The position numbers were made by a program, and so were the translations under genes. Shown here piece by piece: positions 9,490-21,976 of a stretch of DNA of 38,767 nt. The stretch is from a virus: IMG/VR virus record IMGVR_UViG_3300042376_000610, positions 1 to 38,767 of that record; one strand, written 5' to 3'. The notes beneath the pieces are model-generated. The model was not told the DNA's origin. It saw only the letters and a list, made by a program, of their open reading frames with translations, and searched no databases. Positions within the stretch are counted from its first letter, which is position 1. The number at the start of each line of letters is the position of its first letter.

Positions 9490-9915
9490 TTAGCGGGGAA
9501 CTGAGCTTCTGGCTCTTCGGTTGGCAGCTTGTTCTTTAGCTGTAGCCCATCGAACATTACCTGGCTCGTAGTGGCCAAGATTATTAATACGATCCAAAGA
9601 AGTACCTTCCGGTCTTATGCCAATTTCGTCAACCAACTCCTGTAAAGAAGTAAAGCGAAATTCAACATTTACATAGTAACCTCGATGTCCAGTCTTGCAG
9701 CGATATTTTGCCTTGTAATAACTTGATCTTGTTCTAAGCATCGCTGGATCATTCTTGACCCCTGTTCCCTTGTTTGTAGGTACTTGACCTTGCTTGGTGC
9801 ACGAACGACATCTCCAAGTGCCGTTTCTTCTACTGTATTGATCAATGCGAATACTTCCTTCGCAAGAGCAAGACTCACAAAGAACATTAACAAAACGACT
9901 GTTGGCGTTGGCCAT
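9490..9915 (-). CDS. HNH homing endonuclease with N-terminal zinc ribbon
   Basis: 141 residues from the ATG at 9915; the frame extends six codons to a TTG. N-terminal cysteines (C13, C16, C18, C36, C39) suggest a zinc ribbon. The C-terminal half has the phage HNH block SLDRINNLGHYEPGNVRWAT (106-125) followed by KEQAANRR, the D-R-I-N-N and N-V-R-W-A-T signature of free-standing phage HNH nucleases. It probably nicks or cuts DNA at a specific site to promote its own spread. The neighbours on both sides are complete, so it is intergenic and not intron-borne. Confidence 0.85.
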   Translation of the reverse strand: MANANSRFVNVLCESCSCEGSIRIDQYSRRNGTWRCRSCTKQGQVPTNKGTGVKNDPAMLRTRSSYYKAKYRCKTGHRGYYVNVEFRFTSLQELVDEIGIRPEGTSLDRINNLGHYEPGNVRWATAKEQAANRRARSSVPR

Positions 9916-9955
9916 TGGGTTCAAGCGACCCAACTATCATACCACTTGACGCTAT

Positions 9956-10261: not shown

Positions 10262-12499
10262 TTAACCGAAGAAAGAGCCAAAGCTGCCAAGAAAATCTTG
10301 AGCAGACGGAGATTTACTAGCTGTTGTCTTGCTACTTCCTATTTTAAAGTATGAGGGCGCACCTTCATCCTCTTCGTCTGCAAAGATGCTGAAATAACTT
10401 TTCTTTGTAGGCAACTCAGGTTCTTTTGCACTGCTGTCTTCAAACATGCTACCGATGGATGACATGGCGGCAAATGGGTCGGACATGTCAGGCATGGAGA
10501 AACCAAATAAACCTTGCATCCCTCCCTTAGTAGCTAACCTGCCGTCTACTTTTCCAAGGTTTTTGTCTTCGTCTGTTGCGTCTGGAAAGAAGTCACGATA
10601 AAACTCAGACTCATTTCCGTTATACCCGGCTTTCTTAAAGATGTTAAAAAGAGCTGTGCCACCGGCTGGTGATTTAGCTTTTTCATCAGTATCCCGCTGA
10701 ATGTAACTAACACCCAATTGTTCTTGCGTAGGCTTAATTTGTTGTTCATTGAGGATGCGAATCTTTTCGCGTATTTCAGAAGCAGGTTCTGTCCTTAAAA
10801 ATTCAGCAAGATAAGCCTTGACTTGATCGGCCGGCGTCTCATTAGGATCCATACCAACACCTTTTAACTGTGTTAGATATTCTTCCGGAAGGTCCTTCAG
10901 GTTTAATTTGTCAACCAGTTCTTGTGTCTTTGTCTCAGCGGAAACAAAGTCTAAGAATACCGGATTACCATACGATGCTTTTTGGTTTTGTAGTGCTGTT
11001 GCTAGGTCCTTTTGAATGAAAGAAGCAAGATCATCTCGTGTATAGGTGTCAGCAACTGGATCATAGCCTTGAGGCTTGCCAATCAATTCGTAATGTAACC
11101 TTGCAAAGTCATCTTTATTGTTGACGTCTAATCCGTATTCATATGCCCACTGTGCCCATGTTTTTCCGTCTTTTACAGCATTAGTAGAGGCTCTATTTTC
11201 CCATGCTCCGTTAACGCTTGCTTTCTGTTGAGCATATAGATTTGCCTTGCTTGTGGCATCTGTACCACTCAGCAATTCAGGATTCAGATAAAACTTAGGA
11301 TCAAATGCTTTACTTGTGGTTTTTGTTGCAAGGTCACTTAAATAGTTATTGGCTTGTTTGTTGGCAAAATCTTTTAATGCACTTGATGCAAGCTGAGTTT
11401 GCAAAACGTTTTGCTCATCTTCTTTCACATCCATATAGCTAACAAATTCCGTGATTGATTTTGATGTATCAAAACGTGGCTTCAAATAATCGTTAATAAA
11501 TTTGTTTGCAAATTCTTGTTCAATCTTGTATGTGGTTGCAGCATCCGTGGGATCTTTAATCTCCTTCATGTTGCGATAACGTTCGGCAAGCGTTTCGTCA
11601 AACCACTTCTGCCAGTTGTATTTAACAGAGGAACCAATCCCTAAACTCTTGTCAAGAGATTTAGAAAGGCTTTGACCAAAACTTGCAAAACCACCGCCGC
11701 CAAGATCGCCAAGAATTGAGTTCTTGATGTCCTGCTTAAAGCCATTGACATCAGGCATACCCATGCCTTGGAACATGGAACTCATCTGCTCTTGTTTAAG
11801 AGTTTTTGAGTATTGGTCCAGGGTTTGCTTGAGGACATCAGCGGAGAGCGCACCAAAGGTTTGTTCCCCTTGGCGGTCAATGTAATCTTGCGTAGAAAGC
11901 TCAACCAAGGAAGTGGGCTGAGCAGACGATGTGCCTAATAAAGTCTCTCGTAAAACTTGACGTTCTCTATCAGTTGGAGGACGCAGTTTTTCTGTGTACT
12001 CGGTAAGCTGTCTTTGTTTACCAGGAAGACCAGCCGGAGAACCAACAAAGCTATAGTCTGCGTGAAGGTAACTATCTAAGTCGGGATATTGTTTGGTGAT
12101 ATCAACGTCTGCAATCTTTTGCCCTGCAAAGGTAACTGCCTTACTTGCTTCTTTCCAGGTCTTAGCTTTATCTGGAACTAAACCAGCGTAAAACTTTGCA
12201 TCAAAGTCAGTAAGATTCTTGCCTTGTTTAGTTGAGTCCCAGGGTTTTATGCCTGCTGCTTTTTCGTAAAATGATTCAATAGTGCCAATGGCATCCGCAT
12301 CGACGATGTCCTTGGACGCAATACCTTTGCTTTGGAGATCTCTATCAATCCCCTCCATCAATGTTTTATAACTTCCTGCAGATCCTTGAAAAGCGTTTAA
12401 GCGCGTAGCAATAAGCTCTGCTGCTTCTTGTTCCTGAGTAGAAGCATCTTCCGCAAGAGCAGGTGTTAAACGCCCGTTGGATACAATAAAACGAATCAT
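10262..12499 (-). CDS. Large probable virion protein, function unknown
   Basis: 745 residues, soluble, mostly helical and rich in Lys, Asp, Gln and Ala. Two related segments are visible: DFDAKFYAGLVPDKAKTWKE (about 98-117) and AFDPKFYLNPELLSGTDATS near the middle. A Gly/Ser-rich linker (GDLGGGGFASFGQSLSKSL) follows a Met-rich stretch. The C-terminal third has acidic low-complexity sequence (ADEEDEGAPSYF). Size, position in the late operon and the lack of enzymatic motifs suggest a tail or internal virion protein. The start overlaps the upstream HNH stop (ATGA), so the two are co-transcribed. Confidence 0.75.
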   Translation of the reverse strand: MIRFIVSNGRLTPALAEDASTQEQEAAELIATRLNAFQGSAGSYKTLMEGIDRDLQSKGIASKDIVDADAIGTIESFYEKAAGIKPWDSTKQGKNLTDFDAKFYAGLVPDKAKTWKEASKAVTFAGQKIADVDITKQYPDLDSYLHADYSFVGSPAGLPGKQRQLTEYTEKLRPPTDRERQVLRETLLGTSSAQPTSLVELSTQDYIDRQGEQTFGALSADVLKQTLDQYSKTLKQEQMSSMFQGMGMPDVNGFKQDIKNSILGDLGGGGFASFGQSLSKSLDKSLGIGSSVKYNWQKWFDETLAERYRNMKEIKDPTDAATTYKIEQEFANKFINDYLKPRFDTSKSITEFVSYMDVKEDEQNVLQTQLASSALKDFANKQANNYLSDLATKTTSKAFDPKFYLNPELLSGTDATSKANLYAQQKASVNGAWENRASTNAVKDGKTWAQWAYEYGLDVNNKDDFARLHYELIGKPQGYDPVADTYTRDDLASFIQKDLATALQNQKASYGNPVFLDFVSAETKTQELVDKLNLKDLPEEYLTQLKGVGMDPNETPADQVKAYLAEFLRTEPASEIREKIRILNEQQIKPTQEQLGVSYIQRDTDEKAKSPAGGTALFNIFKKAGYNGNESEFYRDFFPDATDEDKNLGKVDGRLATKGGMQGLFGFSMPDMSDPFAAMSSIGSMFEDSSAKEPELPTKKSYFSIFADEEDEGAPSYFKIGSSKTTASKSPSAQDFLGSFGSFFG

Positions 12500-12852
12500 G
12501 ATGCTGCTTTATATTCTTGCATGTCAATTAAGTTTACATTCCCTGGTTGCGTCCAGGCTTTTATTGCATCTAACTTGGCTTGATCAAAAAAATCTTGTTG
12601 CTTGTACCAGGTTTCCATATGGGATGAAGCTTTGTTTGCGTTGCAACGGCAACAAGCTGGGATCAAGTTATGTCGATTAGAACACCCTGATTTAAACCGT
12701 GGGATTACGTGGTCAAGACTTGTGGCGTCCTTGCCGCAATAACCACATTTGTAGTCCCAGGCTTGATATATACTTTCTCTGAAACGTTTCTTGGCAAGTT
12801 TTGGAGTTATTTCAACTAGCAGGGCGAGAGGCTCGTGCTGGCTGCAAAACAT
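12496..12852 (-). CDS. HNH endonuclease (McrA-like)
   Basis: 118 residues. Compact HNH fold with zinc cysteines C36-x-x-C39 (YKCGYCGKDATS), the DH pair D47-H48 (LDHVIPRFKSG), N62 (NRHNLIPACCRCN) with C67 or C68 and C70, and a final N73-K74. These are the beta-beta-alpha-metal residues. It could be a free-standing homing enzyme or, since small HNH proteins sometimes aid phage packaging, a terminase accessory; its distance from the terminase genes favours homing. It is the first minus-strand gene left of the plus-strand HTH cassette and overlaps the next gene by ATGA. Confidence 0.85.
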   Translation of the reverse strand: MFCSQHEPLALLVEITPKLAKKRFRESIYQAWDYKCGYCGKDATSLDHVIPRFKSGCSNRHNLIPACCRCNANKASSHMETWYKQQDFFDQAKLDAIKAWTQPGNVNLIDMQEYKAAS

Positions 12853-19889: not shown

Positions 19890-21044
19890 TCAGATAGTGC
19901 CGTCATCTTGCACAAAGCTGTAAGCAGTGGTCACGAAGTCCTTGTTCAGGATCTCGAAACCAGCGTACAGTTGCCAAATCAGGATGATAAAGCGGCTGAA
20001 GTCATCGTTGTTGTTGATGAGCACCTGAGCGTTAGGACCGCCGATACCAACACCAACAGACTGAGGACCGAAGAAGTAACCTTGGGCCACTTCACGGGAT
20101 GCATAGGTGGAGCCACCATCGAAGGAAGCAGACACGTTCTTGGTCGGGAAGTTGGTCGACTCGAAGAACTTGACGCCTTCAAACTGCACACCAGTCGGCA
20201 TCACGGGTTCACCAGCCAGGAAGTAGCCCTGACCAGCTTGGGGACCCATGTAGAAGCTGGCGTTGTTAGGCATCATGGGGTTACCCATGTACATGCCTTG
20301 GCCAGGATTGCCGCTGTAACGAGCAATCTCACGGAAGTCTGGGTCACGACGCAGGTGCATCATGAAGGTGGGATCGCAGATGCAGCGATACAGACCATCA
20401 GCGAAGGTAGGAGTATTGCGCTTACGCAGGTCCTTAACAACGGTCAGAAGGTCGGTACGCACCTGGAACTGCTGCACCTCATTACCATACTCAGTGGAGG
20501 TGTAAGAAACACGACCCTGAGAATCTTTGGTCTTACCACCAGCGAAATAGTAACCGCCTTGGGTGGTGGAAGCAGCGCCATTGGCTTCTGCTTTGGCAAG
20601 TTCGTCAATGAAGACGCGGTCACGCCAACGGCGATAGTCGTCGAGCAGCGTCAGGCTACCGATCGACTGGTGGAACATGTTGAGGTTACCGGTGTCCAGC
20701 AGAAGACGCTGGGCGGTAATCAGAGTTTCACGCGCAATCTTGAAGGTCGAAGGCTGGGTCGGATCACCCGGGTCGGCAGGACCAGTGTATTCCTTAAGCA
20801 CCACCAGGACTTTCTCCTTGGTGATGTTACGGCTGTTAGCGGTACCGATCGTTTGGTCGGCAATACGCTCACGGCTGTCCTTCGTACCAGGGGTACCCCA
20901 GAACTTATAGCGGTCTAACTGAACGGTTTGACCGGGCTGACGGGTGAAGTCATGGACCACCACGGGCTCCACTGCCATTTCAGCAATGTAAGCAGGGTGA
21001 GGACGGTAAAGTTCCGCACCCAGAATCTTTGGAAAGTCGTTCTC
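19890..21044 (-). CDS. Major capsid protein, exon 2
   Basis: 384 codons of a 388-residue product (exon 1, at 21919-21930, supplies four). The first in-frame ATG lies at 20978, but the sequence before it (DFPKILGAELYRPHPAYIAE) is clearly protein, open back to a stop at 21061-21063 and has no start codon, which led to the intron. The mature part has PVVVHDFTRQPGQTVQLDRY, KFWGTPGT, RNITKEKVLVVLKEYTGP and a C-terminal region of capsid type, matching cyanophage major capsid proteins from memory. With a G as last intron base, exon 2 starts at GAG (21044) or AAC (21041); both keep frame. Size, position beside portal and decoration genes and HK97-type length support the call. Confidence 0.85.
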   Translation of the reverse strand, partial: ENDFPKILGAELYRPHPAYIAEMAVEPVVVHDFTRQPGQTVQLDRYKFWGTPGTKDSRERIADQTIGTANSRNITKEKVLVVLKEYTGPADPGDPTQPSTFKIARETLITAQRLLLDTGNLNMFHQSIGSLTLLDDYRRWRDRVFIDELAKAEANGAASTTQGGYYFAGGKTKDSQGRVSYTSTEYGNEVQQFQVRTDLLTVVKDLRKRNTPTFADGLYRCICDPTFMMHLRRDPDFREIARYSGNPGQGMYMGNPMMPNNASFYMGPQAGQGYFLAGEPVMPTGVQFEGVKFFESTNFPTKNVSASFDGGSTYASREVAQGYFFGPQSVGVGIGGPNAQVLINNNDDFSRFIILIWQLYAGFEILNKDFVTTAYSFVQDDGTI

Positions 21045-21266
21045 CTGGTCTCTAGTTTCTTAGAGGGGTGGACTATCTCTTCATCCCTGTGGGATGCCGG
21101 ACGCTAAATCTGGTATTACGTAACAAGAGCGTGTTACACCCAGTAGTCTCTGCACCTTCCAATCACGACTTGATTGGCTTGGCTCAGGATTACCCTCGTC
21201 TTTACGTTAGGGCTTCCCTGAATTCATCCGGTTTGCACCCATCGATTGCTCGGTGGGGTGACAACG

Positions 21267-21295
21267 TTGAGCGTTCAGTTGAGGCATGCTATGCT
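21267..21295 (+). promoter_or_regulatory. Candidate promoter of the intron HNH gene
   Basis: TTGAGC (21267-21272), 17-nt spacer, TATGCT (21290-21295) on the plus strand. Start of transcription would be near 21302, just before the ATG at 21310, giving an almost leaderless message. The element is inside the intron but antisense to it. Confidence 0.45.
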
Positions 21296-21309
21296 TTGGA
21301 AAGCTGTTT

Positions 21310-21864
21310 ATGAACAACATGGATCCAAAACTTGTTCCTGGATTTGGTAACCTTTACTTAACGGAAGAGGGAAAAGCTTTTGAAAAACAACTTGATCCCG
21401 ATAATCAAGAATATTTTCAAGAGATTCCCATTCGTTCAACCAGTGTTTACGACCGCATTTCAGTTCTTGTAGATGGGAAGAGAAAACGTTTTCATCTTCA
21501 TGTCTTGATGGCGGTTGCTTTCTTAGGATTAGATCTTCGTTCACATGGAACTAGTAACTTTTCCTTACAAGTTGATCACAAAGATAATGACAAGAGGAAT
21601 AATCGACTTGACAATCTAGAGATCGTTACCAAACAAGAGAACTTAACAAGAGCCTGGAAGAGCGGTTGTTATAAAAACAATGGCTTTGCCAGTAAAGGAG
21701 CACCGAAGAAATCTTTGAGAAAATTTTCTTCGGAGGATGTGGCTCAGATTAAAGCTTTAAAAGAAGCGGGACTTTCTTATCGAAAGATTGCTGAAAAGTT
21801 TAGCTGTAACCACGGAGCTATTTACCAAATCTTGAAGGGCTATACCTACCAGGATCTGAACTAG
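21310..21864 (+). CDS. HNH homing endonuclease, antisense within the intron
   Basis: 184 residues from the ATG at 21310 (GGAAAG about 6 nt upstream; the frame extends eight codons to 21286, and an ATG at 21319 is another option). Residues 60-110 hold the phage HNH pattern: HLHVLMAVAFLG, QVDHKDNDKRNNRLDNLEIV (D89-H90, N98), TKQEN. The C-terminus (about 147-175, IKALKEAGLSYRKIAEKFSC) is a helix-turn-helix of the type used for DNA recognition by intron-encoded nucleases. It probably cuts intronless capsid alleles so that repair copies the intron. It is transcribed opposite to the intron and capsid gene, unlike most intron-borne nucleases, and needs its own promoter. Confidence 0.9.
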   Translation: MNNMDPKLVPGFGNLYLTEEGKAFEKQLDPDNQEYFQEIPIRSTSVYDRISVLVDGKRKRFHLHVLMAVAFLGLDLRSHGTSNFSLQVDHKDNDKRNNRLDNLEIVTKQENLTRAWKSGCYKNNGFASKGAPKKSLRKFSSEDVAQIKALKEAGLSYRKIAEKFSCNHGAIYQILKGYTYQDLN

Positions 21865-21918
21865 CTATCAATAAACACCTTGGTTTATCCTCCAGTGTCG
21901 ATGTTTTTATCGGGTGAA

Positions 21919-21930
21919 AGATAAAGACAT
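21919..21930 (-). CDS. Major capsid protein, exon 1 (MSLS)
   Basis: ATGTCTTTATCT, four codons, ends at the U of the P1 U-G pair. Without splicing the frame stops four codons later (TAA at 21909-21907). Joined to exon 2 it gives MSLS(E)NDFPKILGAELYRPH, in frame. The start lies 46 nt after the upstream stop at 21977. The Shine-Dalgarno is weak (TAAGACG), and the ATG lies at the loop edge of an AAGAC/GTCTT hairpin. Confidence 0.75.
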
Positions 21931-21976
21931 TTACGTCTTATCTAACACAAATTTTAGCAGGTAGTGAACTTAGATG

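Follow-up and report, generated by a model that had tools for sequence, protein, structure and literature searches.

The DNA analysed here, a window of 38,767 nt covering positions 1 to 38,767 of an IMG/VR virus record (IMGVR_UViG_3300042376_000610), is a virus fragment from a freshwater cyanophage related to Synechococcus phage S-EIV1. Its major capsid gene lies on the minus strand and is divided by a group I intron that carries, on the opposite strand, a gene for an HNH endonuclease. The larger part of the capsid gene, exon 2, runs from AAC GAC TTT CCA to the stop codon at 19890–21041, and the encoded protein is 87% identical to the S-EIV1 capsid protein and matches PHROG 1357, the major head protein, at 2.5e-17. 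The joined exons encode MFIDNDFPKILG..., a protein of 387 aa, and in the unspliced RNA translation would stop after five codons, MFIDS; gene callers can be expected to miss or truncate a capsid gene split in this manner. A structure model of the capsid protein has a mean pLDDT of 30, too poor for a fold search. In the S-EIV1 record (KJ410740.1), the capsid gene at 60784–62010 has no capsid annotation, and the locus is shown as an opposite-strand hypothetical protein plus a 3' fragment.

The original prediction held that the capsid frame extends upstream of the ATG at 20978, and this is borne out. Since that ATG opens a 362-aa frame, the gene might be thought to start there, with an untranslated upstream frame and no intron at all. 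However, the 20 codons upstream of it have accumulated many synonymous changes while their protein sequence is kept, and intronless genes, which open with a GTG preceded by a good ribosome-binding site, read through the same 20 codons, so that an internal start is highly improbable.

The borders of the exons are given by alignment with relatives. Among the 80 closest capsid loci taken from IMG/VR, 61 are intronless and 17 contain the intron. The intronless genes read GGAGGATAAAACAAA and then GTG TTC ATT GAT AAC GAC TTT CC, or close variants, with a product beginning MFIDNDFPKILGAEL or close variants; their start, GTG-TTY-ATT-GAT-AAC-GAC, stands just behind GGAGGA. The window reads GGAGGATAAACCAAG, then GTG TTT ATT GAT, followed directly by AGCTAG. 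Because intronless relatives start GTG-TTT-ATT-GAT behind GGAGGA, exon 1 is assigned to 21878–21867 (GTGTTTATTGAT, MFID) and the intron to 21866–21042, a length of 825 nt from AGCUAG to CCAGGAG, all on the minus strand, with exon 2 starting at 21041. The 5' splice site is preceded by U, and the intron ends in G. The ribosome-binding site GGAGGA (21888–21893, minus strand) is kept ahead of the GTG in almost every relative read. The predicted spliced junction is GTGTTTATTGAT/AACGACTTT, that is, GAT/AAC, which would yield MFID-NDFPKILG....

An exon 2 at 21041 was one of two options, 21044 or 21041, offered by the original prediction, and the alignment decides for it. Exon 1 had been read as ATGTCTTTATCT at 21930–21919, with an 11-bp P1 and an intron of 874–877 nt in place of the actual 825 nt. 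The inverted repeat behind this reading does exist, and an MSLS-NDFPKIL junction would be in frame. However, the proposed exon lies about 50 bases too far upstream, within a leader hairpin (AGATAAGAC/GTCTTTATCT, holding ATGTCTTTATCT; 21919–21943, minus strand) that is aligned in both intron-bearing and intronless relatives, and the supposed P1 is this same hairpin, upstream of the ribosome-binding site. In intronless phages, the capsid begins at the GTG after GGAGGA although the region around ATGTCTTTATCT is present in their leaders, and in one of them (L003) the frame opened by the equivalent ATG (ATG TCT GAA TCT TTC ATC CGA TAA) ends before the capsid. Capsid homologues checked for an N-terminal MSLS read MFIDNDFPKIL or close variants. 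The intronless alleles thus refute the upstream exon; a first exon of four codons stands, by coincidence, while the codons named for it, MSLS, give way to MFID.

The leader hairpin sits between the ribosome-binding site and a conserved extended -10-like element, TGCTAAAAT (21951–21959, minus strand), which was located by a consensus scan and has near-identical letters in intron-bearing and intronless relatives. A translation switch through pairing of the ribosome-binding site with an intron 'AUCCU' was considered and rejected, as it found no consistent support in eight pre-mRNAs lacking the endonuclease gene.

As predicted, a group I core is present on the minus strand. The sole Rfam match at the gathering threshold in the window is to RF00028 (Intron_gpI) and covers the full model at 21291–21049 (90.3 bits, E 5e-22). 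The 78 distinct introns collected at the capsid site all begin AGC and end CCAGGAG, and GAU/...GAG, in which U ends exon 1 and G ends the intron, is found in every one; 70 are 821–827 nt long and eight are 271–325 nt. Covariation was evaluated on an alignment (A1) of 54 cores with the named structure, using structures slid by 1–3 columns as the control. Under the named structure, 98.5% of cells are paired, and changes on both sides occur in 16 of 65 pairs, compared with 2–4 in the slid controls. Compensatory changes are found in P7 (UA to CG in eight sequences), P7.2, P9 (21050–21065, minus strand; one pair UA to CG), P6 and the hairpin before P3, while P3, P4 and P5 are almost invariant and therefore provide no independent covariation test of these helices. 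Two extra hairpins, P7.1 and P7.2 (21110–21143, minus strand), are located between P7 and the 3' strand of P3, with five of the six P7.2 pairs changing on both sides, and they suggest an IA-like intron, placed near subgroup IA with IA1 and IA2 not separated. P7.1/P7.2 have a different sequence and a similar shape in two introns (L126 and L216), which look as if they had acquired these hairpins from another intron. Together with the Rfam match, the covariation in P7, P9 and P6 fits the P3–P9 core and P3/P7 pseudoknot of group I introns, and the data support such an intron in the capsid gene behind a first exon of four codons.

The internal guide is proposed to be GUUCAG (21856–21861, minus strand), identical in nearly every intron read, which may pair with exon 1 UUGAU to form a P1 with a single bulge and with exon 2 AAC to form P10. 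Written as UUGAU/GU(U)CAG, P1 needs a bulged U and exhibits no covariation, and one intron variant (L210) lacks the G of the P1 U-G pair. The exon letters are more constant next to the intron: UUGAU is present in 49/49 intron-bearing versus 41/46 intronless alleles, and AAC in 57/57 versus 33/46. Such invariance is what P1 and P10 would require, although the contrast at AAC might also stem from the enzyme's choice of target. Apart from the guide, intron nucleotides 13–19, UCCUGGU (21848–21854, minus strand), are complementary to ACCAGGA at the 3' end (21043–21049, minus strand), and both are near-invariant, including in introns without the endonuclease gene.

The gene on the opposite strand of the intron (21319–21864, plus strand), absent from the original prediction, encodes an HNH and helix-turn-helix endonuclease of 181 aa. 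Its stop codon is 2 nt from the intron 5' end, and the last endonuclease codons are therefore opposite the ribozyme guide region. The protein matches Pfam HNH_3 at 3.4e-10, above the cut-off of that family, HTH_38 at 1.3e-4, below its cut-off, and PHROG 59 at 7.5e-27; the best sequence match among solved structures is the HNH part of I-HmuI (PDB 1U3E, E 1.5e-5), itself a distant one. The HNH motif together with the DNA-binding region fits a putative HNH homing endonuclease of group I introns. A motif scan revealed no relatives in bacterial or archaeal genomes, and deposited phages gave one distant match only, at 29%. The structure model, with a mean pLDDT of 56, is too poor for a fold search. 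Elsewhere in the window, a free-standing HNH endonuclease gene lies at 12496–12852 on the minus strand (Pfam HNH, 5.5e-7), and a small protein at 9490–9933, also minus strand, resembles by eye an HNH/zinc-finger homing endonuclease, with no such Pfam match.

The endonuclease frame is open over 181 codons in 70/70 long introns. Its dN/dS is 0.096, compared with 0.18–2.2 in the other five frames, of which the one at 0.18 is most likely the opposite-strand frame that has its third position on the same bases; diversity at third positions of the endonuclease frame is 0.30, against 0.12 and 0.05. A long sense-strand ORF in the intron was dismissed, being not conserved across introns. The eight short introns have no endonuclease gene and contain a small hairpin in its stead; one of 325 nt (L227) retains the start region of the gene only, and this remnant is a decayed copy.

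The distribution of the intron is patchy. A tree of exon 2 has a total of 25 changes between presence and absence, at least 15 of them on well-supported branches, a count that is inflated by recombination of the capsid gene. A distinct leader, spanning about 120 nt upstream, is common to intron-bearing alleles; the sharing does not extend to exon 2. Between intron-bearing and intronless alleles, upstream Fst reaches 0.44 over the 40 nt nearest the site, 0.28 and 0.15 over the following two blocks, and about 0.01 beyond 120 nt; over the last 80 nt upstream it is 0.36, with a permutation maximum of 0.054. No co-conversion is seen in exon 2, where Fst is at most 0.06 without a rise at the insertion site. 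In nearly all intron alleles, the leader is about 5 nt shorter and lacks a TTCCTGCG-like stretch, and leader length tracks the intron in 12–13 of 13 independent pairs, never in the opposite direction. There are exceptions: a TCC-type stretch occurs in some alleles with the intron and is missing from some without it. Moreover, one intronless capsid gene (L396) has an intron-type leader next to its start, a candidate for precise intron loss or a recombinant, and the linkage is therefore strong rather than absolute. The simplest reading of this pattern would be homing with one-sided co-conversion and a cut upstream.

It is therefore proposed, with a probability of roughly 0.86, that the locus holds a mobile, IA-like, self-splicing intron whose antisense HNH enzyme promotes homing into intronless capsid alleles with co-conversion of the leader. 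The intron interrupts the capsid gene 12 nt from its GTG start, and in the minus-strand capsid transcript it would fold, self-splice and restore MFID-NDFPKILG.... As the HNH gene is on the other DNA strand, the enzyme would come from a different transcript than the capsid. In a co-infection, the enzyme would then cut or nick the capsid allele of the phage that has no intron, probably on the side of the insertion site that faces the leader; in the repair that follows, with the intron-bearing allele as template, the intron would be copied along with about 100 nt of leader. Splicing, endonuclease activity, where the enzyme cuts and when the antisense transcript is made are what we infer here; the fold, the borders, the intact selected gene, the patchy distribution and the one-sided flank linkage were computed directly. 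More tentatively, the antisense placement may itself be functional, in that the endonuclease would be made from the opposite strand before capsid transcription and then silenced when strong late transcription of the capsid gene passes through the intron, the spreading unit being the intron plus approximately 100 nt of leader; this extension is somewhat doubtful.

A real group I intron might also contain an inactive endonuclease, with its patchiness produced only by ordinary recombination of capsid alleles. The capsid region does seem to recombine heavily, and the gene is missing from eight introns. However, the 70/70 open frames and the dN/dS of 0.096 imply that the protein is in use, and plain recombination should act about evenly on both sides of the insertion site whereas the flank linkage is one-sided, which renders this explanation unlikely. 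Another alternative concerns one step only, namely that the distinct leader is an adaptation to splicing or translation beside the intron instead of a co-conversion tract. The association of leader and intron is nearly complete, and the leader adjoins both the splice site and the start codon, so that such adaptation merits some weight. Nevertheless, predictions do not consistently pair the ribosome-binding site with the intron, the intron-type leader of L396 stands without an intron, and leader linkage falls smoothly with distance, and adaptation is accordingly regarded as a possible but less favored account. If homing with leader co-conversion does take place, it would also exchange the region in which translation of the most abundant virion protein begins.

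A capsid intron with an antisense HNH gene is already known from mycobacteriophage LittleE, and the arrangement is uncommon. LittleE has an intron of ~820 bp in the major capsid gene with an antisense HNH gene inside, its splicing has been demonstrated by RT-PCR (PMC3706429; GenBank JF937101), and there, too, U ends exon 1 and G ends the intron. It differs in that the insertion is deep in the capsid gene, that a single phage is concerned, and that its intron stretch has no Rfam match at the gathering score. BLASTP finds no relation between the LittleE and the cyanophage intron HNH proteins, and the combination of capsid intron and antisense HNH has therefore probably arisen twice. A capsid intron is also attributed to lactococcal Tuc2009, as cited in PMC3706429. 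The statement that capsid introns are seldom described holds for cyanophages within the literature searched, while outside cyanophages such introns are known. A search of the open literature, which covers few subscription papers, turned up no description of this capsid intron. With LittleE, the opposite-strand endonuclease gene makes two phage cases, and it poses the question of how an antisense gene can be expressed within a structural operon that is itself transcribed. Population data on this capsid intron are unusually complete: a single cyanophage lineage, most of it uncultured, has intron-bearing, gene-less, decayed and empty alleles, so that sequences by themselves suffice to follow the homing cycle, and the one-sided flank linkage predicts the side on which the enzyme would cut.

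Other known systems share only some of these features. The nearest cores in deposited phages, from Vibrio phage terminase genes and Klebsiella jumbo phages (Alcyoneusvirus), are 71–77% identical over about 165–184 nt and score 75–104 bits with Rfam, but the host genes are other than capsid. The Vibrio terminase introns looked at have no HNH gene annotated inside, and the intron of Klebsiella phage Muenster is near a tRNA cluster and is followed downstream, on its own strand, by an HNH gene. Two Vibrio phage terminase regions (L278 and L282) each have three group I intron matches. In the freshwater cyanophage Pf-WMP3, a group IA2 intron with an HNH homing endonuclease, I-PfoP3I, has been demonstrated to splice (PMC3428280), and thus resembles the present one in its phage type and enzyme class; it differs in residing in the DNA polymerase gene at another insertion site, and the passages found on it describe no antisense gene. 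An endonuclease gene antisense to the ribozyme is also present in Dsq.L2066, a nuclear rDNA L2066 intron (PMC9548176), which differs in being a group IE intron of eukaryotic rDNA with a His-Cys enzyme and a spliceosomal intron inside the gene.
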